Virus record (IMG/VR): IMGVR_UViG_3300028196_000024
Span: 1-46,946 of that record
DNA from: a virus
Direction: 5' to 3' (one strand)
Length of the DNA stretch: 46,946 nucleotides
Shown: in pieces, positions 3,025 through 37,175 of the stretch
Position numbering within the stretch: position 1 is the first letter of the stretch
How the letters are laid out: each line of letters starts with the position of its first letter
The notes under the pieces: generated by a model
The model's database searches: none
The model's input: the letters and a program-made list of their open reading frames with translations, nothing else
Told to the model about the DNA's origin: nothing
Translations under genes and position numbers: made by a program

Positions 3025-3171
3025 ATGCTAGATATTGGCGGTTTAGTTTGGTGGCAATGGTGGCTGTTATTAATGGTCACCATTAACACAAGTCTAAATA
3101 CTATTACTTTTTTTAAACATAGAAAGACTAGTAGACAAGGGAAAGCAATACTTGACGTTAAAGAACAATAA
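3025..3171 (+). CDS. Small single-pass membrane protein, 48 residues
   Basis: Begins at ATG 3025 shortly after the previous stop. The first 30 residues are very hydrophobic and Trp-rich (GGLVWWQWWLLLMVTI) and are followed by a basic tail (FKHRKTSRQGK), which predicts one membrane helix with a cytoplasmic C-terminus. No family is recognised. It is part of a run of tiny membrane proteins after the reductase. Confidence 0.55.
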   Translation: MLDIGGLVWWQWWLLLMVTINTSLNTITFFKHRKTSRQGKAILDVKEQ

Positions 3172-14161: not shown

Positions 14162-17100
14162 ATGGCACAATTAATTGATTTAGGAAAACTACGTTTCCAT
14201 TTTGCAGGTGAGTGGGCAAACGGAACAACGTATGAAAGAAATGATATCGTCAAGTATGGCGGTAACGTTTATGTATATACTCACACATTAAAAACAAGCG
14301 GTAATGTACCAACAGATACAGCTTATTGGGCTTTAATGGTAGAAGGCTTTAAGTTTGAAGGTGTATTTGATACAACTACTACTTATCAAGTTGGAGATGC
14401 TGTAAGCCACGGTGGTAAAGTTTATGTGTCTGTTTTAGGTAGCACAGGACAAACACCTCCTAATACTACTTACTGGTCACAATTTGTAGACGGTATTCAA
14501 TATGAAGGTGTTTACAGTAATACAGCCGCTTATCAAAAGAACGACATGGTTACTTATGGTGGCTCTGTTTATATGGCTAAACAAGACACAACAGGAAATT
14601 TACCAACAGTAACAACTTATTGGGATCAATTTGTTGAAGGTATTTCTCCTGAAGGGGTCTATAACAATTCAACCGCGTATGTTCCAGGAGATCTTGTAGC
14701 TTACGGTCCAAACCTTTATCGTGCAATTGCTAATACAACAGGCAACTTGCCAACTGATACAGCTAATTGGGAAACATATGTCGCAGGTACTAAGTTTCAA
14801 GGTGCTTATGATAATGCTACTCAATACTATCTAAATGATATTGTCCTTTACGGAGCCAATGCTTATCGTGCTAAAAATGACGTATCAGCAACTTTACCGC
14901 CCTCAAGTACTTCCGATTGGGAACTTGTAATTGAAGGATTCAGCCATCAAGGGAATTGGTCAAGCTCAACCGCTTATCTAATTAATCAGGTTGTAACTTA
15001 TGGTGGTTCTTTATATAAAGCACTTAGAGATAATAATGCTCAAAACCCTTCTACTCAAACCTCTGATTGGATTCGCTTAAACGGTGGCATTAACAACAGA
15101 GCAACATGGGCAACCACTACTGACTATGATACTGATGATGTTGTTTCTTATGGTGGTAATACTTTTATTGCTCTAGAACCTCACGCTTCAGGTTCTTTTG
15201 CTGCAGATTTGGCTGCTAATAAGTGGCAAAAATTTAGTTCTGGCGTAGATTACAAAGGTGGTTGGGCAACAGGATCTTATTACAAAGTAGATGATATTAT
15301 TAAAGATGGTATTTCAAGCTATATTTGTTTAGTAGATCACCAAGCAGCAACTTTTGCAACAGATGTAGCAGCAGCTAAATGGGAATTCTTTGCAAGAGGT
15401 GCAACAGATGTGTTGCCGGTGGTTACTGCATCAGATACAGGTAGCTCTTTAACAGTTGCAGCAGACGGTATTAACTATGCGTGGATTGGTGCTACTAATT
15501 CAAATAACGTATACTACGTTGCCCCTCATGGTACGGATACTGTAGATTCAGGTCAAGCAATGGCTACACCCTTTGCTTCTATTAAATATGCTTGTGCCAC
15601 AGCTCCAACAAACTCAGTAATTTATGTTAAAAATGGCACTTATGAAGAGCAGCTGCCAATTGTTGTAAAAGATACTCAAGCAATTATTGGTGATTCTCAA
15701 CGTAGTGTTATTGTTCAACCTGAAACTACAGCTGATAATGGCTTCGGTGCAGGTATATCAGATGATGGTACTACACCAAATAACCAATCTCAAATGTTTC
15801 AACTAAGCAATGGTTCTATACTTAAAGGTATGAGTTTTAACGGAATGACTGGTTGGACAGCAGCTGCATCACCGAATCAAGACAATATCGCATCGTCTAC
15901 AGCAAAAGGTATTTGTGTTGCTCTTAACCCTAATAGCCCAGTAACAAGTAAATCACCTTACGTGATGGAGTGTTCTGCTATTGGTAGTGGTTGTATTGGT
16001 GCTTATGTAAATGGCAGTGCTCATTCAAGTGGTAATAAAAGTATGTTATTTCATGCTTATACTGTTATTGCGGATAATGGTGTTGGTTTTTGGATTGCTA
16101 ACGGCGCTAAGGCAGAAGTTGTTTCTTGTTTTACTTATTACTGTTATTTTGGCTATGCAGCTGATCATGGTGCTCAGATACGTGCGCTTAACGGTAATAA
16201 CTCTTATGGTACTTGGGGCGCAGTCTCAGTAGGCTTTGATCAAAGTGAAACAGCATTAACAGGTGCAGTAAAGGGCTCAAGACTTCACGTTGATAATTTT
16301 CAAGTTGCTTCTTTTCAAGTAGGAGAAACAATAACAGGTGGCACTTCTAGTGCAACTGCTGTAGTTACTAACGTTCAACAATCTGCAGGTTATGTCTATG
16401 TAAAAGATGTAACTGGAACATTTCAAGTTAATGAACAGGTTACAGGCGGCACCTCTAGTGGAACTGCTGATGTTGATAGTAATGCCATTCAAGATCAAAG
16501 AGGCTTTGTTATTGTAGCAGATGGATTTGCTTCCACACCTGAACCTGGACGTAGTATCCAGTTTGCAGGTGACACTATTGCTTATGTTATTCAAAGTGTT
16601 TCTGGTACTTATGCGGATGCAACTAGTGAAATGACATTGGTTCTGGCGCAAGAGAAAACAACAGGTTCTGCTGATAATGTAGCTATTACAATACGTAAAG
16701 GCTTTTCACAAATCAGGCTAACAGGCCATGATTTCTTAAGCATTGGTACAGGTGGTTTTACTACAACTAACTATCCTGGAACTCCAACTCAAGCTGCTGC
16801 GCAAGGTAATGAAGTTCAAGAAAATTTCCCTGCTAGGGTTTACTATATTTCAACAGACCAAGATGGTAACTTCCGTGTAGGTGAATATTTTAGAATTGAA
16901 CAGGCTACAGGTAAAGCAACACTTAACGCTAGTGCTTTTGATCTAGCAGGTCTAACTTCACTTAGGCTTGGATCTATTGGTGCTCAACTTGGTGAACAGA
17001 TTAATGAGTTTTCTTCTGATGCAAGTTTATCAGGAAGTTCTAATACAGCAGTACCAACCGAAAATGCGGTTAAAATTTATGCAGATACTAAAGTGGCTAA

Positions 17101-17629
17101 ATCAGGCGATACTATGTCTGGCGTTCTTGCAATGGGCGCTAATAAAATCACTGGCCTTGCTGCTCCAACTGATGCTAATGACGCGACTAATAAAACCTAT
17201 GCAGATACTAAAGTAACCAAAGCAGGTGACTCCATGTCTGGTGATCTTGCTATGGGTTCTAATAAAGTTACAGGTCTTAGTGCGCCAACTGATGCTAATG
17301 ATGCAACTACTAAGACTTATGTAGATACTGAAATAGTTGCAGGTGCTCAAAATCAAACTGTTACGATTGTTAGTGGGAATACAACTTTAACTTTAGGACA
17401 AGTATTTGCTGTAGATGGTGCTCATACAGTCACTCTCCCTGCCAGTGCAACAGCAGGCGATACAATTAAAATCATAGATGTTTCAGGGGCAGCAAGCACA
17501 GCAAACATTACCGTTGCACGAAACAGTAACAATATTGCAGGTTCAGCAAACGATCTTACTATAGACGTAAATAATGCTGGAGTAGAACTTGTATATATCA
17601 ATTCAACTTATGGTTGGGGAGTATTATAA
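14162..17629 (+). CDS. Large tail fibre: carbohydrate-binding repeats plus beta-helix
   Basis: An 1155-residue fibre. Residues about 10-412 hold eight tandem repeats of 49-52 residues with the pattern G-x-W/Y...Y-x-x-x-D-x-V-x-Y-G-G-x-x-Y...YW, like ChtBD3/CBM5-type sugar-binding modules. Residues about 440-700 start NNVYYVAPHGTD and TPFASIKYAC and form a right-handed beta-helix of the pectate-lyase type. Two VGETITGGTSSATA-like repeats follow. Near 920-980 is AFDLAGLTSLRLGSIGAQLG, known from marine phage fibres, then two fibre repeats (see 17081) and a beta tail. It likely binds host surface glycans. Confidence 0.9.
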   Translation: MAQLIDLGKLRFHFAGEWANGTTYERNDIVKYGGNVYVYTHTLKTSGNVPTDTAYWALMVEGFKFEGVFDTTTTYQVGDAVSHGGKVYVSVLGSTGQTPPNTTYWSQFVDGIQYEGVYSNTAAYQKNDMVTYGGSVYMAKQDTTGNLPTVTTYWDQFVEGISPEGVYNNSTAYVPGDLVAYGPNLYRAIANTTGNLPTDTANWETYVAGTKFQGAYDNATQYYLNDIVLYGANAYRAKNDVSATLPPSSTSDWELVIEGFSHQGNWSSSTAYLINQVVTYGGSLYKALRDNNAQNPSTQTSDWIRLNGGINNRATWATTTDYDTDDVVSYGGNTFIALEPHASGSFAADLAANKWQKFSSGVDYKGGWATGSYYKVDDIIKDGISSYICLVDHQAATFATDVAAAKWEFFARGATDVLPVVTASDTGSSLTVAADGINYAWIGATNSNNVYYVAPHGTDTVDSGQAMATPFASIKYACATAPTNSVIYVKNGTYEEQLPIVVKDTQAIIGDSQRSVIVQPETTADNGFGAGISDDGTTPNNQSQMFQLSNGSILKGMSFNGMTGWTAAASPNQDNIASSTAKGICVALNPNSPVTSKSPYVMECSAIGSGCIGAYVNGSAHSSGNKSMLFHAYTVIADNGVGFWIANGAKAEVVSCFTYYCYFGYAADHGAQIRALNGNNSYGTWGAVSVGFDQSETALTGAVKGSRLHVDNFQVASFQVGETITGGTSSATAVVTNVQQSAGYVYVKDVTGTFQVNEQVTGGTSSGTADVDSNAIQDQRGFVIVADGFASTPEPGRSIQFAGDTIAYVIQSVSGTYADATSEMTLVLAQEKTTGSADNVAITIRKGFSQIRLTGHDFLSIGTGGFTTTNYPGTPTQAAAQGNEVQENFPARVYYISTDQDGNFRVGEYFRIEQATGKATLNASAFDLAGLTSLRLGSIGAQLGEQINEFSSDASLSGSSNTAVPTENAVKIYADTKVAKSGDTMSGVLAMGANKITGLAAPTDANDATNKTYADTKVTKAGDSMSGDLAMGSNKVTGLSAPTDANDATTKTYVDTEIVAGAQNQTVTIVSGNTTLTLGQVFAVDGAHTVTLPASATAGDTIKIIDVSGAASTANITVARNSNNIAGSANDLTIDVNNAGVELVYINSTYGWGVL
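17081..17320 (+). repeat. Two tandem 120-bp fibre repeats
   Basis: GCAGATACTAAAGT begins at 17081 and again at 17201, giving an exact 120-bp period (40 residues, each with SGDxMSGxLAMGxNKxTGL and APTDANDATxKTY). The copies differ mainly at third codon positions, so the duplication is old and kept by selection. It is the classic phage tail-fibre repeat and a likely place for recombination. Confidence 0.85.
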
Positions 17630-19313: not shown

Positions 19314-19841
19314 ATGGCACTAAGAGATCATATAAAAGAAAATCATGATCTCGCCGAGAAACACCCTTTTGTAAAACTTTTGTTTTCAGGGGGTGTTTCT
19401 ACCCACATCTATGCAGACTATTTATTAAACCAGTATTTAATGTATTTAAAATTAGAGACTCTGCTAGAGCATTACGGGTTACTCCAAGGCGTAGAGACTG
19501 TTAAAAGATCTAAGTTAATGTTAGATGATTTCCATGAACTTAAATTTAATGCAAAAGTTTATAATGTTACTTATAAATATGTAAGTTATTTAGATACAGT
19601 ATCAAAAGAAAACTTAATGGCGCACATGTACGTGCGGCACTTTGGAGATTTATTTGGTGGACAACTTATGAAAAAGGTTGTTCCAGGATCAGGGTCTATG
19701 TATGAATTTGAAGATAGATCCAACCTTATTAAAAAATTAAGAGAGCGTTTAGACGATAATTTAGCAGATGAAGCCAACAAAGTAATGCTTTGGGCTATAG
19801 ATTTATTTCAGGAGTTAGCAGATGAGCATGATATTCGATAG
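19314..19841 (+). CDS. ho: Heme oxygenase
   Basis: A 175-residue all-helical protein of the heme oxygenase family, which cleaves heme to biliverdin IXalpha, CO and Fe2+ using reduced ferredoxin. The N-terminus LRDHIKENHDLAEKHPFVK aligns with the proximal-helix region of cyanobacterial HO1 (LREGTKKSHSMAEN), placing the heme-ligand His at His11. The distal-helix signature appears as YVRHFGDLFGGQLMKK (GDLSGGQ in HO1). It is shorter than the roughly 230-240 residues of HO1, as in other marine phage versions. It overlaps by 20 bases with the bilin reductase that would use its product. Confidence 0.92.
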   Translation: MALRDHIKENHDLAEKHPFVKLLFSGGVSTHIYADYLLNQYLMYLKLETLLEHYGLLQGVETVKRSKLMLDDFHELKFNAKVYNVTYKYVSYLDTVSKENLMAHMYVRHFGDLFGGQLMKKVVPGSGSMYEFEDRSNLIKKLRERLDDNLADEANKVMLWAIDLFQELADEHDIR

Positions 19842-20472
19842 CTTAGAAAAAGTTCATAAAGATATAATCGATATACTTTCTAAGTACACTGAAGTAAAGG
19901 AAGATCATGAATTTTCGTGGCCAAATTATGTTTATAAAGACAAAAAATTTAGACGAGCACATCTTGATATTGTTGATGCAAGAGATACAAAGAATCTTTA
20001 TATGTTACATCTTTGTGTATTTCCACATACCAAAGACCCTGCACCGATATTTGGATTCGATATAATTGCAGGACCAAGAAAAGTAACAGGGGCTTTTCAT
20101 GACTTTAGTCCTGTAGCAACAGATCATTGGTTATTAGACTGGTTTGAAAGTAACGCTAAAAAATTTAAAGCAAGTAAAGAAAGAGAATTACCTGATTGGG
20201 CAAAAGCTATTTTTAGTGGTAATATGATTGCAGCAGGTAATGTTAGATCTGAAGAAGAACTTAATAAAATATTAAAATTAATTATATCTAACCTTGAATT
20301 CTATTTAAATAATATAGGAGAAGTTAGTAAAACTAATTTTAAAATGAAACAAAACTTTTATTGCGAAAAACAAAAAGAAAACCCCCATACACCTAAAGTA
20401 ATGACCTCTCTTGGTTTAGACCCCGAAGAAGTTCGTCTTTTTATACAAGAAGGGTTGTTCCCAGAAATATAA
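19822..20472 (+). CDS. pcyX: Ferredoxin-dependent bilin reductase, PcyX-like
   Basis: A 216-residue member of the PcyA/PebS/PcyX family that reduces biliverdin. Residues 47-50 HLDI carry Asp49 where PcyA has Glu76. LHLCVFP gives His63 (PcyA His88), and FHDFSPV gives Asp94 (PcyA Asp105). FGFDIIAG, ELPDWAK and the C-terminal YCEKQKENPHTPKVM are family hallmarks. Glu-to-Asp at the 76 position fits the viral PcyX group, reported to make phycoerythrobilin. AGGAG upstream of ATG 19822 selects that start over 19828. No bilin-binding protein is seen nearby. Confidence 0.9.
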   Translation: MSMIFDSLEKVHKDIIDILSKYTEVKEDHEFSWPNYVYKDKKFRRAHLDIVDARDTKNLYMLHLCVFPHTKDPAPIFGFDIIAGPRKVTGAFHDFSPVATDHWLLDWFESNAKKFKASKERELPDWAKAIFSGNMIAAGNVRSEEELNKILKLIISNLEFYLNNIGEVSKTNFKMKQNFYCEKQKENPHTPKVMTSLGLDPEEVRLFIQEGLFPEI

Positions 20473-20481
20473 AGGAATTTC

Positions 20482-21165
20482 ATGTCAAAAAGAAGATCTC
20501 GTTACGCTCTAAAAAACAATGTACATAGCATAGGTTTTCATGTTATACCTAAAAATGAAAAACAAAATAGACTTATTCGATCTATTCAAATGTATCCTAT
20601 TGTTGTTACTATTGGCTGTGCAGGTACAGGTAAAACATACTGTAGCACAGGTGCAATTGCCTCGTTATACCAAAAAGGTAATTATGAAAAAATTGTAATA
20701 ACCAGAGCAAACGTTCCAACTGGAAAAACTTTAGGGCATTTTCCTGGAACTATACAAGATAAAATGACACCTTGGCTTATGCCTATGTTAGAAGTATTAG
20801 AAGAAGCTTTTAGTAAAGAAAAATATAAATACATGTTAAATAAAGGTGAAATTGAGATTCAACCTATTGAAACCATTAGAGGACGTTCTTATAAGAACTC
20901 TTTGGTATTAGTAGATGAAGCTCAAAATCTATCTATAGAAGAATTAAAAGCTATTACAACAAGACTAGGGGAAAATTCTAAATTAGTATTAATGGGTGAT
21001 CCAGCACAGTCAGATGTTAAAAACGGACAAGACTTGATGACATTTTGTAGTCACGTAGAAAGATCAGGAATTCTTTTACCTGTAATAGAGTTTACTGTAA
21101 AAGATATTGTAAGAAGTGATATCGTAGCCGAACTAGTCAAAATGTTTATAAAAGAAAAGATATAA
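20482..21165 (+). CDS. phoH: PhoH-like P-loop ATPase
   Basis: A 227-residue protein with Walker A GCAGTGKT (residues 45-52), TRANVPTGKTLGHFPG, and Walker B LVLVDEAQN (Asp145, Glu146), followed by MGDPAQSD and a closing FTVKDIVRSDIV, all hallmarks of PhoH. It is common in marine phages. Its cellular role is unsettled, with phosphate stress or RNA metabolism proposed. AAAGGAATTTC precedes the ATG. It is the last gene of the heme/bilin segment before the tail-tip module. Confidence 0.95.
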   Translation: MSKRRSRYALKNNVHSIGFHVIPKNEKQNRLIRSIQMYPIVVTIGCAGTGKTYCSTGAIASLYQKGNYEKIVITRANVPTGKTLGHFPGTIQDKMTPWLMPMLEVLEEAFSKEKYKYMLNKGEIEIQPIETIRGRSYKNSLVLVDEAQNLSIEELKAITTRLGENSKLVLMGDPAQSDVKNGQDLMTFCSHVERSGILLPVIEFTVKDIVRSDIVAELVKMFIKEKI

Positions 21166-28905: not shown

Positions 28906-28922
28906 TACCTGACGTTTAAGAA
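28906..28922 (+). promoter_or_regulatory. 17-bp repeated motif, copy 4 (candidate phage promoter)
   Basis: TACCTGACGTTTAAGAA, identical to copies 1 and 2 and fully intergenic. It lies 11 bases after the holin stop and about 90 bases before the head operon. TAAGAATAAA occurs on both sides. A leader with two hairpins follows. It is the candidate start of the head transcript (portal, MuF fusion, scaffold, capsid). Confidence 0.75.
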
Positions 28923-29308: not shown

Positions 29309-30874
29309 ATGGTTCAATTAACAAAACCTACAAAGGCTATTAAAAAGTCAGTAGCAGATCCTAGTGATAGCTATCAATCTTTAAAACCTTTGTGGAAGAA
29401 ATCTAGAGCCGTTTTACAAGGGCAAGAAAATGTTAAAGCACATGATGAATATTTAGAACATGATTATTCAAATTTACTTCTTCCATTTTCACCTAGTATG
29501 ACGCAACGTCAATATGACTTTTATAAAGCAGAGGCTGAACTTCCAGGATTGACTGCACAGTATTGTAAAGTACTTATTAGTGCTCTCCTAAGAAAAGACT
29601 CTCATTTGAAATTACCAGAAGAACTTCCTGAAGATTCTTATGATTGGATTAAAAACAATTTTACTCTTGACGGTCGTTCTTTATTTAACTTTTTAGATAA
29701 TGCTCTTTGGGAAGAACTTCAAACTTCTAGGGCATGGATATATGTTGATTATCCAGAAATAACTGAAGAACAGTTTGATGCGATGTCTCCCGAACAAAAG
29801 ATGAATATAAAACCTTATCCTGTAGTTATTGAAGCTGAAAATGTAATTAACATACACACAGATACTCATCCTGTTACAAGACAAAAAACTTTATCTAGAC
29901 TAGTTACACGTTATTTAGTTAAACGTTATACGGCAGATAATCCTTGGCATCCTAATTATGTTGATACCGTTTGTGATCATTATTTAGATGAACAAGGAAA
30001 GCTTGTACTAGACTATTATGAACATGCAGATACTAACAATGAGATAAAAGTTCTTAACGGGGATATTAAACAGGATTATGAAGAAAGACTTACAGAAATA
30101 GGTTTTAAGAAAACTAATACTGTTCTTCCAACAATGTTTGGAGAAAGACTTTCCAAAATACCTGCGTGGCCAATTAACGGTCATTTAGAGCCAGTAGAGC
30201 CTGTATTGTTACCTTTGATTGATAGAGAAATAGCTTTATATAATAAAGTATCTCGAAGAAATCATTTATTGTATGGTGCAGCAACGTATACTCCAATTGT
30301 TCAATCTGATATGACAGATGAAGAATTTGAAGATGTTGTTAACTCAGGTCTTGGCTCTTGGCTAAGAGTAAGAAAAGACGAATCAATAACCGTTTTAGAA
30401 ACACCCACTGCTGCCTTAGCTGATATGGAAAAAGCTATTATAACTACAGTTGATGAAATGGCTAAAATGGGAATTAGAATGTTATCTCCCGAACAAGCAG
30501 CTTCAGGAGTAGCCTTAGAAATTCGTAATGCTTCTCAAACAGCACAGCTAGGAACACTTAATGCCAAAGTATCAGGTACTATTAGAGAAGTTATAGCATT
30601 TATGCTTAACTGGAAATATAATACTGAATATACTGCAGAAGACGTTGAATTTCAAATGTCTAGCGATTTTGCACCTATGGTTGGTGGAGAAGGCGCAATG
30701 CGTTTAGTTTCTGAATGGTATCAAATGGGAATTATTAGCCGTTCTACTTGGATTAATATTGCTAAGTATAATGACTTTTTACCTGCTGATTACAGTGATG
30801 AAGAAGCAGTAGAAGAAATACAAACAGATCCATTAACTCAACAGACAAATGTAGAAATGGATATTGAAGAATAA
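29309..30874 (+). CDS. Portal protein
   Basis: A 521-residue protein with the features of siphovirus portals of the DUF4055 type: SYQSLKPLWKKSRAVLQG and YDFYKAEAELPGLTAQYCK near the start, a long central beta/alpha region with RAWIYVDYPEI, and a C-terminal helical stem (ALEIRNASQTAQLGTLNAKV). It forms the dodecameric channel through which DNA enters and leaves. It is followed at once by the MuF fusion, the usual partner of portals. AAGGAATAACC precedes the ATG. Confidence 0.87.
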   Translation: MVQLTKPTKAIKKSVADPSDSYQSLKPLWKKSRAVLQGQENVKAHDEYLEHDYSNLLLPFSPSMTQRQYDFYKAEAELPGLTAQYCKVLISALLRKDSHLKLPEELPEDSYDWIKNNFTLDGRSLFNFLDNALWEELQTSRAWIYVDYPEITEEQFDAMSPEQKMNIKPYPVVIEAENVINIHTDTHPVTRQKTLSRLVTRYLVKRYTADNPWHPNYVDTVCDHYLDEQGKLVLDYYEHADTNNEIKVLNGDIKQDYEERLTEIGFKKTNTVLPTMFGERLSKIPAWPINGHLEPVEPVLLPLIDREIALYNKVSRRNHLLYGAATYTPIVQSDMTDEEFEDVVNSGLGSWLRVRKDESITVLETPTAALADMEKAIITTVDEMAKMGIRMLSPEQAASGVALEIRNASQTAQLGTLNAKVSGTIREVIAFMLNWKYNTEYTAEDVEFQMSSDFAPMVGGEGAMRLVSEWYQMGIISRSTWINIAKYNDFLPADYSDEEAVEEIQTDPLTQQTNVEMDIEE

Positions 30875-30899: not shown

Positions 30900-33800
30900 A
30901 TGGATATTAATACAAAAATTTATGATAGAGTTGTAGATCATTTAACTGATGTACGATTATATGAAGAAAGTGTTCAATTACAAAATAGAAGAATTCTGCA
31001 AAGACATAGAAAGAAATTAAAAGTAGTTCTAAAGGAAAATATCAGGGCTGATGTAAAACCTGAAATTAGACGTTTTGGAAAAGAACTTTTAAATCATCAA
31101 AAGTCTAGTATATTAGAATTTTCTACTTCTCAATTAGATTTTAACTCAGATAATCTTAACAAAGAATTAAAAAACTTTTATAAAGTAACTAAGCCAAAGA
31201 GCAAAGAACTCTTGGCAGAAATTACAGGCCCAAATATAAAAGGTGTTAAATCTATCTCTGAAAATGTAAGGAACATTTCTTCAGGTGAATTAATTAGAAT
31301 TCAAACAAAAGTAAAAGGGGGGTTAGCAAAAGGGCTAACTCCTAATGAAATTATAAGTGATGTTTTAAAGACAACTAAATTAACCGAAAATCAAGCTAGA
31401 GCGTTAACTAGAACTTCTATTACTAGTACTCAAACATTAGCTTTAAACAAGGTTGCAGAGTCTAATAATCATGTTATAAAGGGTTTTGTTTTTACTGCAG
31501 TTTTAGATGCTAAAACCAGCCCTATTTGTTCTTTTCATAATGGAAAAATTTACAAAATAAATGATAAAAGGTTTCAACCACCTTTACATTGGAACTGTCG
31601 TAGTTCTCTAGTACCTATTGTTAAATCTAAAGAAGAACTTTTAGAACAAAAAACATCTCGAATTAATAAAACTAATTTAAAGAAAAAGAAACCAGAGTCT
31701 TTAACAGGTATTATGCCTAAGACTGAATCTTTTGGTGCTTGGTTAAAAAGGCAGTCTTTTAATACTCAAAGTAAAATATTAGGAACAGCCGAAAAAGCTA
31801 ATTTGTTTATATCAGGTAGGCTTAAATATGATCAATTTATTACACCTAAAGGAAAAGGATTATCAATACAAGCTTTACGAAATAGAGCAGCTAACGCAAC
31901 AGCAATTTATAATCCAAAACAAAAATTAAGAGAAGCAGACGTAAAAATAGAAGCAAATCGTCCTAGTTCAATTATTAGATCTCCAAGACATAAAGACGAT
32001 ATAAGACAATTATTTTTATTAGATTCTGATGATTTTTCAAAAACTTTTTCTCTTACAGATTTTAAAGGTACAAGTCTTGTTGGTAAGACAGCTTCAAGGC
32101 GCAGAGTTGGCAATGAATTTGATGAAAGAAATTTTAGCACAGATCCCCTTACAGGTGAAGTAAAAAACACTAATATTTATGATCCTGATTTTACTCTATA
32201 TCAAGAAAGACTTGATTTTATGAGAAATAGTAAGCTCCTAAAACAAGATGAAAAAGATTTTATTGAATCTTTAGTAGCAGGTCTAGATGATAAAGTTTCT
32301 GTTAATCAACAAACAGTGGTCATTGAAAACTTAAGAGTTGTTTTTGAAAGATACGCAAAAGATAAAAAACCTTGGAATGATTTATCTGCAGTTTTAAGAG
32401 CAGAAAATAGATTTTCTGTTCAAAACGTTTCTAGACTATTAGATACAAGGTCTAGACGAAGATCTGAATTATTTGTTAAATATTCTGCTGATGAAATTCC
32501 TAAAGTTCAGATTATGGGGGATTATTATACGTTTGATAATTTAATTTCTAATCAATTAAAAGATCAAAGATTTATTGATAATTGGAGAGCTACAGCAGGT
32601 AAAAAGTTATCTGAAAAAATTTATTTTAAAGGTCGTGCGCCTTCGAGATTATATTTTAAAAATTTAACTGAACATTATCCTTCAATAGAAACTTTTAAAA
32701 AAAATCTATTAGAAGATAACATGTATGCTAAAGCTTATAATAAATTTAAATCAATATATAATAGAGAACCTTCAGAATCGTGGATATCTCAAACATATTC
32801 TAGGGGTAGGTCGAAAATAAGAAGCATAATAGATTTAGAATTTCTAAATCAAAAACAAAGAGTATCTAGTAACTTTTTTGATGATAAAGCTATCGATTCT
32901 TTAACAAATATCACAAAATTAATTGCTTCAGGTCAATCAACTGATTATGATGCTTTAGCAATAAATATTGGCAAGAGATTAGCTAAAGATTTTAAAGATG
33001 TAATTCCCTTTACTAAAAATACATTAGCGGATTATCATAAAGAAGGCTCAAAAGTATTAAAGTTTTTACAAGACCAAGGAATAATAAGAGTTCAATTTAG
33101 AGGAAAAACACGAAGAGGTGTTTTAGATTTAGACACAGGTCGTGCTTCTGGAGGTTGGGGTGATACTATTTCTAGAGAAGTTCAAGTAATTAATAAAGAT
33201 ATTTTAGAACTACAAAAGGCAGAAAGACGAGTTACTATTGCTAGACGTCTAGGTATTACTAATGCTAGAGATAAACTCTTTGTTAAACCAAATGAAAAAG
33301 TTTATTTTGACGCTAGAGGTAAAAAAACAGGAATTCCTTTTATATCTAGAGATAAATTTTCTGACTATGATTCAAAACAAATTGACAGAGAAATGGCAGG
33401 TATGCTAAATCATGTTATGAATGTTGAGTATAGTGTAGATAAAGAATTTGTTTCTTTTATGGATGACGTAGTTAGATTTAGAGATCCCAGAGGTAATTCT
33501 AAATATTTTGATTCAATAAATAACTTTAGGCATGAAATTATAAATAGAGGTGAACAAGGCTACGGTCTAATGTCTACAGCTAAGTATCATGCTCAAAGAA
33601 ATAAGAATTTTACTACTCCAGCATTTATTGATAGCAGAAGCAGGGTATACCACAGAGGATACTTAACACCTACAGGTGGTGAAGTTGCAAGGCCTTTTTT
33701 AAATTCTGGTAAGGCAATAAAAATGTCTCCCGAAGCTTTAGATGAATTAAAAATTCAAATAGGTGCCTTAATTGGCCCTGGAACTGAAGCTTTAACTCAA

Positions 33801-35261
33801 TCAGGCAGAAGAGCTATCTTTAATAGGAATAAAGACAAACTTCTAGAATTAGGAGAACTTATTCAATCGCTAACTCAAAGAGATCGTAGGATACGACAAT
33901 TTTTAGAACATCCTTTAATAAGAGGATTAGAAGGAAAAGAAGTTCCTAAAATGGCTCGAATGGCACTTGAATACTCTAGGATACAAAAACATTTAGATTC
34001 TGGAAAACCCTTAAATAGTTATAAAACAAAATTAATGATAGAAAATGATGCTAGTTCTTCTGGTGCTCAAATCATTGGTTTGTCTACAGGAGATCGGGCA
34101 GTATCTCAAGCGAGTAATGTTTTAGCTACATCTCAAAAAAATAGGTTATATGATTTAGTAGCAATAGATACAGTAAACGATCCAGAGTTTCTTAAGATCC
34201 CTGCTTTGCGTGATTCTAATTTAACTTGGGAAGACTTGGCAGCAGCAGCTAAGGGCCAGAATATGGTTGGATTTTATGGGGCTGGCTCTGCAACAAAAAC
34301 TATGAGAGTTTCTAAGGGATTAAAAGAAGTTTTAGAAAATAAAGATTTTTTAGTTATTACAAAAGAAACATTAAATCCTAATCTCAGAATAGTTGATGGG
34401 CAAATTAAAGTAGCCGAAAGACTAGGTGCAACTAGCACTGTAGAAGAATTAAAACTTTTTAGAAAAGAATTAATAGAACTTATAAATAAAAATGAGCCTG
34501 TTGGAAGAACACTCTTAAAACAAGCGCAGGATATACATCCTGACGTTGAAGATTTTGTTAATAAGTTTACTAATACGAGAAAAGGGATTGTTGGTCCAAA
34601 AGAATTTTCAGAAATCTCTAGGATCATGTCAAAGAATTTATCTCAACGTGCGCCTGTTACTGATAATTTTATTAATTATTGGAAAGAGGTGGCCAATATT
34701 TTTGTAAATGAAACTCAAAAGGTAGATATACCTTGGGTAACATTTGATGGAAAAATTGTAACACAGAGATATCGCCCAAAATTACAGGAAAGAATTGAAT
34801 TCAGAGATCCTGTAACTAATAGGCGAATAGTTAACATCTATGAAGCTAGTGCAGAAGACGGAAAACTTCTAGGAAAAAGTTCTCTTAATGATGCACGTAT
34901 TGGTCTAGGTGTTAATGGAAATCACAGTAATGACGCTGTTATTGTAAGACGTTTCCATTTATGGGCGCGTAAAAACAACGTTGATAGTGGTACTATCCAC
35001 GATGCTTTCTTTACTAATATTAGTGAAGCAAGGCGTGCAAAAGACGCTTTAAGAACCATCTATGCAGATGCTCTTGAAGGTGATACTATAAGAAAGACTT
35101 TACGTGAAATGCGTAGACAAGGTCTTTCTAAAAAATCTTATAATTATTTATTGCGTAAAGCAAAAGAACAAGGTTTAATTGACCCTGTTAATAAGATTAC
35201 AAGAAAAGATATACTAGCCCCTCTTAAAGAGGGTGAAGACTGGTATGGAATTGGACCATAG
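30900..35261 (+). CDS. MuF minor head protein fused to a single-subunit RNA polymerase
   Basis: A 1453-residue fusion. Residues about 120-330 are a complete MuF (SPP1 gp7) domain: Asp203 and Cys210 in DAKTSPIC, HNGKIY, PPLHWNCRSS (227-236), then the MuF extension FGAWLKRQSFNTQSKILG. From about 880 the T7/N4 polymerase motifs appear in order. DSRSRVY (911-917) is the DxxGR region and motif A is D1050-ASSSGAQ. Motif B is K1118-x7-Y1126-G and motif C is H1367-D1368-AF. T7 has DWRGRVY, DGSCSGIQ, K631-x7-Y639-G and HDSF. Residues 345-880 are not recognised and may hold linker and promoter-binding parts. One uninterrupted frame; GGAG upstream of the ATG. Confidence 0.9.
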   Translation: MDINTKIYDRVVDHLTDVRLYEESVQLQNRRILQRHRKKLKVVLKENIRADVKPEIRRFGKELLNHQKSSILEFSTSQLDFNSDNLNKELKNFYKVTKPKSKELLAEITGPNIKGVKSISENVRNISSGELIRIQTKVKGGLAKGLTPNEIISDVLKTTKLTENQARALTRTSITSTQTLALNKVAESNNHVIKGFVFTAVLDAKTSPICSFHNGKIYKINDKRFQPPLHWNCRSSLVPIVKSKEELLEQKTSRINKTNLKKKKPESLTGIMPKTESFGAWLKRQSFNTQSKILGTAEKANLFISGRLKYDQFITPKGKGLSIQALRNRAANATAIYNPKQKLREADVKIEANRPSSIIRSPRHKDDIRQLFLLDSDDFSKTFSLTDFKGTSLVGKTASRRRVGNEFDERNFSTDPLTGEVKNTNIYDPDFTLYQERLDFMRNSKLLKQDEKDFIESLVAGLDDKVSVNQQTVVIENLRVVFERYAKDKKPWNDLSAVLRAENRFSVQNVSRLLDTRSRRRSELFVKYSADEIPKVQIMGDYYTFDNLISNQLKDQRFIDNWRATAGKKLSEKIYFKGRAPSRLYFKNLTEHYPSIETFKKNLLEDNMYAKAYNKFKSIYNREPSESWISQTYSRGRSKIRSIIDLEFLNQKQRVSSNFFDDKAIDSLTNITKLIASGQSTDYDALAINIGKRLAKDFKDVIPFTKNTLADYHKEGSKVLKFLQDQGIIRVQFRGKTRRGVLDLDTGRASGGWGDTISREVQVINKDILELQKAERRVTIARRLGITNARDKLFVKPNEKVYFDARGKKTGIPFISRDKFSDYDSKQIDREMAGMLNHVMNVEYSVDKEFVSFMDDVVRFRDPRGNSKYFDSINNFRHEIINRGEQGYGLMSTAKYHAQRNKNFTTPAFIDSRSRVYHRGYLTPTGGEVARPFLNSGKAIKMSPEALDELKIQIGALIGPGTEALTQSGRRAIFNRNKDKLLELGELIQSLTQRDRRIRQFLEHPLIRGLEGKEVPKMARMALEYSRIQKHLDSGKPLNSYKTKLMIENDASSSGAQIIGLSTGDRAVSQASNVLATSQKNRLYDLVAIDTVNDPEFLKIPALRDSNLTWEDLAAAAKGQNMVGFYGAGSATKTMRVSKGLKEVLENKDFLVITKETLNPNLRIVDGQIKVAERLGATSTVEELKLFRKELIELINKNEPVGRTLLKQAQDIHPDVEDFVNKFTNTRKGIVGPKEFSEISRIMSKNLSQRAPVTDNFINYWKEVANIFVNETQKVDIPWVTFDGKIVTQRYRPKLQERIEFRDPVTNRRIVNIYEASAEDGKLLGKSSLNDARIGLGVNGNHSNDAVIVRRFHLWARKNNVDSGTIHDAFFTNISEARRAKDALRTIYADALEGDTIRKTLREMRRQGLSKKSYNYLLRKAKEQGLIDPVNKITRKDILAPLKEGEDWYGIGP

Positions 35262-35307: not shown

Positions 35308-35346
35308 ACTATAAATTAACTCAAGCTGTGCTTGAAAGGAAAAATT

Positions 35347-36030
35347 ATGAGTGAAGAAGATAATAAGATTGAAGAATCAGTAGATGAAACAACTGAAACT
35401 AAAACATTTGAACAAGAATCTATTGAAGAAACATCTTCTACAGATGAAGAAAATAATGATCCAGTTGAACAAGCGGTTAATGATAGACTAACAAAAATGA
35501 AGTCTAATATGGATCGTATGGTAAAAGAGCGTGATGAAGCCTTAAAAAAAGCCGCAGAAATTGAACAAGCCCAAAAGCAAAGTGAAATTAAGCGACTTGA
35601 AGAAGAAGGTAAACTTACTGAAGCTCTTGAAATGAAACTTGCAGAATCCGAGGCTAAGTTAAAAGTATTTCAAGAAGAAAATACAAAACTTAACCGTGAT
35701 AATGTAGTAAATTCTCAACTTGCGATTCTAGAATTTAGGAATGAACGTAGTCGTCAAATGGCGCAGCGTGATATTGTTGAGCAACTTGTTCAAAATGAAA
35801 ATGGGTCTTGGTTACACAAAACTGGATCTTCTATAAAAGATTTTATTGAATCTTACTCTAAGAATGAAGATAATTCATTTCTGTTCCGAGTGAAAGCGAA
35901 TAGCGGTGCTGGTAAAACTAATCCATCTGCTCCATCTAATACTGACGAAAAAAAGTCGTTATCTCAGATGTCTACAGATGAAGTTTTAACTTTAGCTGCT
36001 AAAGGTCAACTAGGATCATTCAATTATTAA
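35347..36030 (+). CDS. Capsid scaffolding protein
   Basis: The ATG at 35347 follows AAAGGAAAAATT; a TTG at 35332 is less likely. The 227-residue product is highly acidic at the N-terminus, has a long coiled coil (VKERDEALKKAAEIEQAQ onward) in the middle and a short C-terminal helix (DEVLTLAAKGQLG). It lies between portal and major capsid protein, which is the standard arrangement for scaffolds that shape the prohead and then leave or are cut. No protease gene is seen beside it. Confidence 0.8.
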   Translation: MSEEDNKIEESVDETTETKTFEQESIEETSSTDEENNDPVEQAVNDRLTKMKSNMDRMVKERDEALKKAAEIEQAQKQSEIKRLEEEGKLTEALEMKLAESEAKLKVFQEENTKLNRDNVVNSQLAILEFRNERSRQMAQRDIVEQLVQNENGSWLHKTGSSIKDFIESYSKNEDNSFLFRVKANSGAGKTNPSAPSNTDEKKSLSQMSTDEVLTLAAKGQLGSFNY

Positions 36031-36059: not shown

Positions 36060-37175
36060 ATGGCTATTACAAACACTGACTTTCAGAACGTAGCCCTCGC
36101 TATTTCTGCTTACGCAGATGAGGCATATACAACTGAGAAAAAATTAAACTCCACAGATATTGTTGGCGCAAGAGACGATATCACAGATACAGGCGAATCA
36201 TTTGTAGGACAAATGCGCTTTTATAAACCACTTGCAGCAAATATCAATGTTCCATCATTGTCTTCTGCTACAGATGGCACGTATACTGATATCTCAACAG
36301 ATATTGCTAACTACGTAAAATCAGTACGTACATTCGGTGCGCAACAAGTTAACTTGCAAGAAGTAATTTCAAAGCAAGATGGTCTTGCTAAAATTGCTCG
36401 CGACTTTGCTCAAGTACGTGGTGATGACGAAGGTAATGCTCTTATGGCTTGCCTCAAAGGTGTTGCAGCTTCTGAAACAGGTCTTGGTGACAAGGGCGGT
36501 TCAGGTAACGGCGGTATTGTCAACTTTGATACAAACGCAGACGCAGCTAACACAGGTTTCTTTGTTGATATCAATGATGCTGGTCAATTTGGCGCAGCAG
36601 CTACAGGTACAAGTGACCAACGTAAACTCTTTGATGCAACCGCAACAGGTGCAGCAAGAGGTGAGCGCCTTTTCCAAGCTATTGGAATGGCATACAAAGA
36701 TCATGAACCCGATTTTATGTATCTTGTAACTTCTCCTGAAATTATGGCAGAAATGCGTGCAGCCAACTTGGTTGACGAAACAATGATTACAGACGGTAAT
36801 ATGAACTTTAATACTATCTTTGGTGGTAAGTTCCGTCTTGTTATGACTCGCGCAAGCCAACGTGCAACTACTGAAGCAGGTGATGTAAACGCACAATCCA
36901 CTAAGTGTTCTTTTGTGATTAAGCCTCAGTCAGTAGCAGCAGCTAATGTAACTGTGCCTACTCCTGTAGAAGTTGATCGTAATGCAGCTTCATACACAGG
37001 TGGTGGTTCTACAAACGTTTGGTATCGTTATGGCTTTATCATGCATCCACAAGGGTATGATTGGTCAGGTGCTACTAACGCTTTTGCAACTAATACAACT
37101 CTTGGTGCAGCCGCGTCTTGGTCTCGTAAAATGGACGCACTAAACCTAGGCATTTTGCCTATCTTCCATTCATAA
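36060..37175 (+). CDS. Major capsid protein
   Basis: A 371-residue protein preceded by AAAGGATTAAAATC. Its codons and GC content differ from its neighbours (more GC-ending codons), as expected for the most expressed gene. It has the look of HK97-fold capsids of this size class: an N-terminal helix (DFQNVALAISAYADEAY), a beta region with YVKSVRTFGAQQVNLQEV, LFQAIGMAYKDHEPDFMYLV, and MTRASQRATTEAGD. The position after the scaffold supports the call. Confidence 0.87.
   Translation: MAITNTDFQNVALAISAYADEAYTTEKKLNSTDIVGARDDITDTGESFVGQMRFYKPLAANINVPSLSSATDGTYTDISTDIANYVKSVRTFGAQQVNLQEVISKQDGLAKIARDFAQVRGDDEGNALMACLKGVAASETGLGDKGGSGNGGIVNFDTNADAANTGFFVDINDAGQFGAAATGTSDQRKLFDATATGAARGERLFQAIGMAYKDHEPDFMYLVTSPEIMAEMRAANLVDETMITDGNMNFNTIFGGKFRLVMTRASQRATTEAGDVNAQSTKCSFVIKPQSVAAANVTVPTPVEVDRNAASYTGGGSTNVWYRYGFIMHPQGYDWSGATNAFATNTTLGAAASWSRKMDALNLGILPIFHS

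Follow-up and report, generated by a model that had tools for sequence, protein, structure and literature searches.

The locus described here lies in an uncultured viral contig (IMG/VR record IMGVR_UViG_3300028196_000024), a genome fragment of 46,946 bases that was analysed in full and that we refer to as the window. On its plus strand, positions 30900 to 35261 form one open frame of 1453 codons without an internal stop. The encoded protein joins an N-terminal MuF (head morphogenesis) domain to a C-terminal single-subunit RNA polymerase (RNAP) of the T7 type, and we call it MuF-RNAP. An earlier note on this DNA, made from its letters alone, had claimed such a frame, and the coordinates it gave proved exact. 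Its claim that a MuF domain is fused to a single-subunit RNAP is now fully supported by profile and structure searches, in which both families exceed their Pfam cut-offs.

The MuF domain covers residues ~66-334 (positions 31095 to 31901, plus strand). Head morphogenesis family PHROG 241 matches residues 66-334 (E = 1.6e-46), and Pfam PF04233 matches residues 134-237 (45.7 bits, cut-off 29.6; E = 1.3e-11); the same Pfam family scores 50-61 bits in five relatives. Behind it, a middle region (residues ~345-666, positions 31932 to 32898, plus strand) leads into the N-terminal domain of the polymerase. This region is conserved in both lineages of relatives described below, is assigned to no family and is confidently predicted in structure for much of its length; the N-terminal model found zero fold matches in the PDB. 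Only MuF and RNAP were matched above Pfam cut-offs. Five relatives (L076, L098, L099, L119 and L071) carry an additional segment of ~130 amino acids, which in L076 sits directly behind the MuF domain.

Profiles and a predicted structure together identify the polymerase part (residues ~674-1413, positions 32919 to 35140, plus strand) as a T7/mitochondrial-type single-subunit RNAP. Pfam RNA_pol (PF00940) matches residues 1029-1414 with 25.9 bits against a cut-off of 22 (E = 5.6e-6), and the RNA polymerase family PHROG 414 matches residues 900-1138 (E = 3e-23). A polymerase profile of residues 345-1453, built from 61 relatives, reached T7 RNAP in the PDB by hmmsearch (1aro, E = 1.8e-6) and aligned with it by hhalign over 640 columns, covering T7 residues 125-839 (E = 3.8e-9). 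Single-sequence phmmer searches of the PDB returned zero matches, and T7 RNAP was thus reached by profile only; as a control, the profile gave no match to a tail protein of the window. The polymerase had previously been placed from residue ~880 onwards. It starts well before that, since the alignment with T7 RNAP sets in at residue ~674 (T7 residue 125).

The AlphaFold2 model (mean predicted local distance difference test score 79.9, predicted template modelling score 0.71) points to the same fold. Its best Foldseek match in the PDB is T7 RNAP (E = 2.9e-19, probability 1.0, template modelling score 0.55 by target length), and among the 50 matches listed all are T7 or mitochondrial single-subunit RNAPs. 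In a viral structure library, the homologue from roseophage DSS3_VP1 ranks ahead of T7-type phage RNAPs (~1e-21 to 1e-16), which in turn rank ahead of the virion RNAPs (vRNAPs) of the N4 type (~1e-12). When the polymerase profile was compared by hhalign with the single N4 mini-vRNAP sequence and with a profile of seven N4 vRNAPs, neither match was significant, which rules out an N4 origin at the profile level. Of the original label 'T7/N4-type', the first half therefore stands, extended to the mitochondrial enzymes, and the second does not, although in its mode of action the protein would resemble the N4 enzyme.

All the catalytic motifs named in the earlier note were found, in the order expected of a single-subunit RNAP and on the plus strand. 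The first, D911-S-R-S-R915-V-Y917 (33630 to 33650), is of the T/DxxGR type and corresponds to DWRGRVY in T7 RNAP. Motif A, D1050-A-S-S-S-G-A-Q (34047 to 34070), holds the catalytic aspartate and is aligned with T7 residue D537; motif B, K1118-x7-Y1126-G (34251 to 34280), corresponds to K631 and Y639; and motif C, H1367-D1368 (34998 to 35003), is aligned with the T7 sequence IHDSF, which contains H811-D812. In all 61 aligned relatives, with identities to the window protein of 30-91%, residues D911, R913, R915, Y917, D1050, S1052, S1054, G1055, Q1057, K1118, Y1126, G1127, H1367 and D1368 are invariant. Invariance over such divergence argues that the motif match is not due to chance and that activity is under selection, and the enzyme is apparently an intact one of the T7 type. 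Because the fold matches that of T7 RNAP, the active-site residues are also predicted to cluster.

One position departs from this pattern of conservation. The residue four positions before the motif B lysine, the equivalent of T7 R627, is alanine (Ala1114) in the window protein and in 41 of the 61 sequences, arginine in 17 and glutamine in three. The 17 with arginine are members of the second lineage, and Ala1114 belongs to the window's clade. Arg1104 occurs in 41 sequences, the same number as Ala1114, and may compensate for it in a possible swap of the active-site arginine. Separately, in four relatives (L146, L159, L160 and L167) the DxRxR motif is separated from motif A by an in-frame insertion of ~145 amino acids, which may be an intein or an additional domain.

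The fusion is widespread. A complete fused frame was fetched from 94 loci in many metagenomes (76 distinct sequences), which split into two lineages ~30% identical to each other: 73 loci of the window type and 21 of the type of EBPR siphovirus 1. Copies with 99-100% identity occur in other metagenome data sets (L004-L006), and relatives of the polymerase part are present on at least 544 viral contigs. The 94 loci include the genome of the isolate DSS3_VP1, which has a full-length homologue (59.6% identity), and a second isolate, DSS3_PM1, has a full-length match as well (59.5%); isolate annotations go no further than 'head morphogenesis' or 'minor head protein-like' for the fusion. An assembly join of two genes, which the earlier note had raised as a way in which its claim could fail, is excluded by the 94 complete frames, that of the sequenced isolate DSS3_VP1 among them, and by the match in DSS3_PM1. 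A search of 84,980 prokaryote genomes with two peptide patterns gave no prophage relatives. Altogether, the MuF-RNAP phages form a large group with long tails, most of whose members are uncultured.

In several members of the second lineage the polymerase part is interrupted; in EBPR siphovirus 1, for example, an HNH gene lies between the fusion halves (gp47/gp48/gp49). Group I introns (Rfam RF00028) were detected in seven scanned loci (L171, L169, L163, L137, L132, L124 and L166); in L169 and L171 a single gene holds several. Because most of these introns lie next to points at which the polymerase half of the gene is broken, they indicate that its conserved codons make attractive targets for homing, as do those of genes for essential enzymes.

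The neighbourhood is that of a head operon on the plus strand. A portal protein gene lies directly upstream of the fusion (29309 to 30874; PHROG 145, E = 5e-52), and downstream follow genes for a head scaffolding protein (35332 to 36030; PHROG 206, E = 4.7e-9) and the major head protein (36060 to 37175; PHROG 247, E = 1.1e-25). This arrangement recurs among the relatives. The fusion gene directly follows the portal gene, as a MuF gene should: a portal gene ends at most 1.5 kb upstream in 104 of the 105 loci with room for it. A major capsid gene starts at most 4 kb downstream in 84 of 85 such loci; both counts include overlapping fetches of one contig and are not all independent. Elsewhere, the window encodes a class II (B12-type) ribonucleotide reductase (1052-2923), a tail fibre of 1155 amino acids with five CBM5/12 (chitin-binding type) repeats (14162-17629) and, among the tail genes, a ferredoxin-oxidoreductase-like gene beside phoH (19822-21165).

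The phages of this group also carry a second polymerase. Among 16 records searched, a separate T7-type RNAP gene is present in all nine of at least 63 kb and in four shorter ones; the three records that lack it (the window, G011 and EBPR siphovirus 1) are all fragments. The standalone enzyme has roughly 700-790 amino acids where uninterrupted, is split or interrupted in several records, matches Pfam RNA_pol with E values down to 5.5e-88 and is annotated 'RNA polymerase' in DSS3_VP1. A genome that encodes a second RNAP outside the virion is a mark of the vRNAP class, found here in nine of nine records of that size (the window fragment has one polymerase), and the two-polymerase arrangement is as in phages N4 and P23-45. 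The idea that MuF-RNAP is a duplicate of the phage's own standalone enzyme is unsupported, since the match of the polymerase profile to the standalone enzyme of DSS3_VP1 spans 253 columns with E = 0.0038, far weaker than its match to T7 RNAP. DSS3_VP1 has DNA containing deoxyuridine (dU-DNA; PMC12697855). As a general reason for a phage to bring its own polymerase, dU-DNA was rejected: of the 16 records, DSS3_VP1 alone was found to encode its dCTP deaminase. The YfbR/Dtm family was likewise found only in DSS3_VP1 among the records examined, several of which are fragments, and thymidylate synthase (PF00303), absent from all 15 records searched, does not discriminate.

A promoter-like motif, TACCTGACGTTTAAGAA, precedes the operon of the portal and MuF-RNAP genes (28906 to 28922, plus strand), with other copies at 3149, 6828, 11871 and 21185. 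Written as TACCTGACGTT[T/A]AAGAA (or AATACCTGACGTT[T/A]AAGAA), it occurs five times in the window, where 0.2 occurrences are expected, and each time on the plus strand. In DSS3_VP1 a related motif, ATAGGKTRCGTTAAAGA, has 14 sites where 0 are expected, and every one lies on the gene strand. In 119 relative loci (1.17 Mb) the gene strand has 67 copies of the motif core and the opposite strand none. In most of the sites listed, AATACC stands immediately before the core, and together they recall the T7 promoter (TAATAC...). The motif would serve one of the two polymerases as a promoter, and the standalone enzyme is the likelier of them, since the motif is found ahead of late genes too. A stretch of 16.5 kb in DSS3_VP1 (NC_055826, ~29.4-45.9 kb) is free of the motif and holds the standalone RNAP gene; perhaps it is read by another polymerase. 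No second promoter class was found near that gene. Perfect short hairpins with loops of 3-5 nucleotides, as in N4-like promoters, are not above expectation in DSS3_VP1, and hairpins in the window are in slight excess without a shared sequence.

Several known systems share parts of this design. The vRNAP of N4 (gp50, Schitoviridae) is, like MuF-RNAP, a single-subunit RNAP encoded by a late gene in a genome with a separate second RNAP. Unlike MuF-RNAP, it has 3500 amino acids, belongs to a podovirus and has no MuF match, and its motif reads T-x-x-G-R where MuF-RNAP has D-x-R-x-R. Packaging and injection are known for the N4 enzyme, whereas for MuF-RNAP we infer them. N4 packages 4 +/- 1 copies, which are ejected apparently unfolded (PMC12633501), and a survey of polyvalent proteins found N4-like vRNAPs confined to N4-like phages. 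In P23-45, gp96 is an RNAP fused to a virion protein of a long-tailed phage that also has a second, non-virion RNAP, and this vRNAP transcribes pre-early genes (PMC10770324). It differs in being a two-barrel RNAP homologous to cellular RNAPs and in sitting on the tape measure in the tail, whereas MuF-RNAP places a T7-type enzyme on a portal-located head protein. This long-tailed phage with its tape-measure-fused vRNAP (PMC10770324) weakens the earlier remark that a MuF-polymerase fusion would be particularly unexpected in a siphovirus-type genome.

For the MuF half, the closest parallel is the SPP1 gp7 family, whose effector fusions likewise combine an N-terminal MuF domain with a C-terminal enzyme. 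SPP1 gp7, the model MuF protein, binds the portal strongly and thereby enters the procapsid in few copies; it is not needed for assembly and helps infection to start, and toxins on the C-terminus of gp7-like proteins have been proposed to be delivered by the same route (PMC6316719). Published MuF fusions carry ART/VIP2, RelA/SpoT, PBECR and PRTase enzymes, with C-terminal cargo expected to be delivered with the DNA; unlike here, none of these named cargoes is an RNA polymerase (PMC5512222, PMC7302621). T7 RNAP itself (Autographiviridae) has the same fold, motif order and catalytic residues, and differs in being a free enzyme made after infection, unfused and unpackaged. The nearest cultured phages, DSS3_VP1 and DSS3_PM1 (Naomviridae, Noahvirus), share the full-length homologue, the same operon and a separate RNAP gene; DSS3_VP1 differs from the other relatives examined in its dU-DNA genes.

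Taken together, we give a probability of about 77% to the reading that MuF-RNAP is a portal-anchored, virion-packaged early RNA polymerase. The fusion would be made late, from the head operon, and its MuF domain would bind the portal, bringing few copies into the procapsid like SPP1 gp7. In the next infection, the C-terminal polymerase would exit the head together with the DNA or slightly before it, pass the tail unfolded and refold in the cytoplasm. There it would transcribe the first genes, which would include or lead to the standalone T7-type RNAP, and the latter would transcribe later genes, the next round of the head operon included. Portal packaging and early transcription are well motivated by the MuF domain, the late head operon, the second RNAP and published precedent, both for cargo on MuF and for a siphovirus vRNAP fused to a tape measure; in a portal-scaffold-capsid operon, an early polymerase that is not packaged would make no sense. 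Several points weigh against it: a folded protein of ~165 kDa is too large for a siphovirus tail channel, which obliges us to assume unfolding, as in N4; an early promoter for MuF-RNAP was not identified; and the equivalent of T7 R627 is alanine in the window's clade, where nucleotide binding may differ as a result. The fusion, the fold, the intact catalytic residues, the late-operon position, the joint conservation of both parts and the second polymerase are observed, whereas packaging, ejection, refolding, early transcription, promoter choice and activity are steps that we infer.

The late operon could also suit an active polymerase that is never packaged, either because it is cleaved from the fusion as the head is assembled or because its work is confined to the late phase in the producing cell. 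MuF-type proteins can be processed, and a weak PHROG 595 label, 'head maturation protease', spans residues 51-567; that match overlaps the MuF region, and no Pfam family other than MuF and RNAP exceeds its cut-off. A late polymerase would need no 1450-residue fusion kept in two lineages, and the phages already have a standalone RNAP, all of which makes this alternative unlikely. Less probable still is that the polymerase serves as a motor that pulls the genome in by transcribing it, its transcripts being secondary. A portal-linked position would place it on the first DNA to leave, and pulling has been proposed for N4 (PMC12633501), as has entry coupling for P23-45 (PMC10770324); a motor function is compatible with a packaged early polymerase and does not exclude it. 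That the domain is a catalytically dead structural relic could be read from its divergent sequence and from the lost R627 equivalent, and we regard it as very improbable: D1050, K1118, Y1126, H1367, D1368 and R915 do not vary in 61 sequences down to 30% identity, and introns lie near the polymerase motifs in several members, as in genes for essential enzymes.

Known virion RNAPs are fused to the tape measure in P23-45, and elsewhere are fused to or associated with ejection proteins (N4) or large proteins of unknown function (crAss-like phages). MuF-enzyme fusions, virion RNAPs and RNAPs fused to virion proteins are already known; what would be new is a virion RNAP with MuF as its carrier and an enzyme from a different branch. 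In the open literature we found no description of a MuF-RNAP fusion, the original description of DSS3_VP1 itself lying outside the search. We think it somewhat more probable than its opposite that phages here deliver an RNAP to the cell by a third route, independent of the other two. MuF would tether a T7-type enzyme to the portal, where it might already hold the leading end of the genome inside the head and transcribe it on entry, and so drive a cascade independent of host RNAP in a widespread group of siphovirus-like phages.

Under the preferred reading of a packaged early polymerase, the carrier is a small portal-bound protein with known head sorting and a habit of carrying cargo, and the polymerase belongs to the T7 class, which is well understood. 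T7-type polymerases would have become virion enzymes separately from N4, and MuF would be a ready-made module for loading enzymes into phage heads. Packaging and ejection of a polymerase would become testable in culture with the roseophages that grow on Ruegeria pomeroyi DSS-3, and many uncultured phages whose gene is labelled merely 'head morphogenesis protein' may begin infection without the host polymerase.

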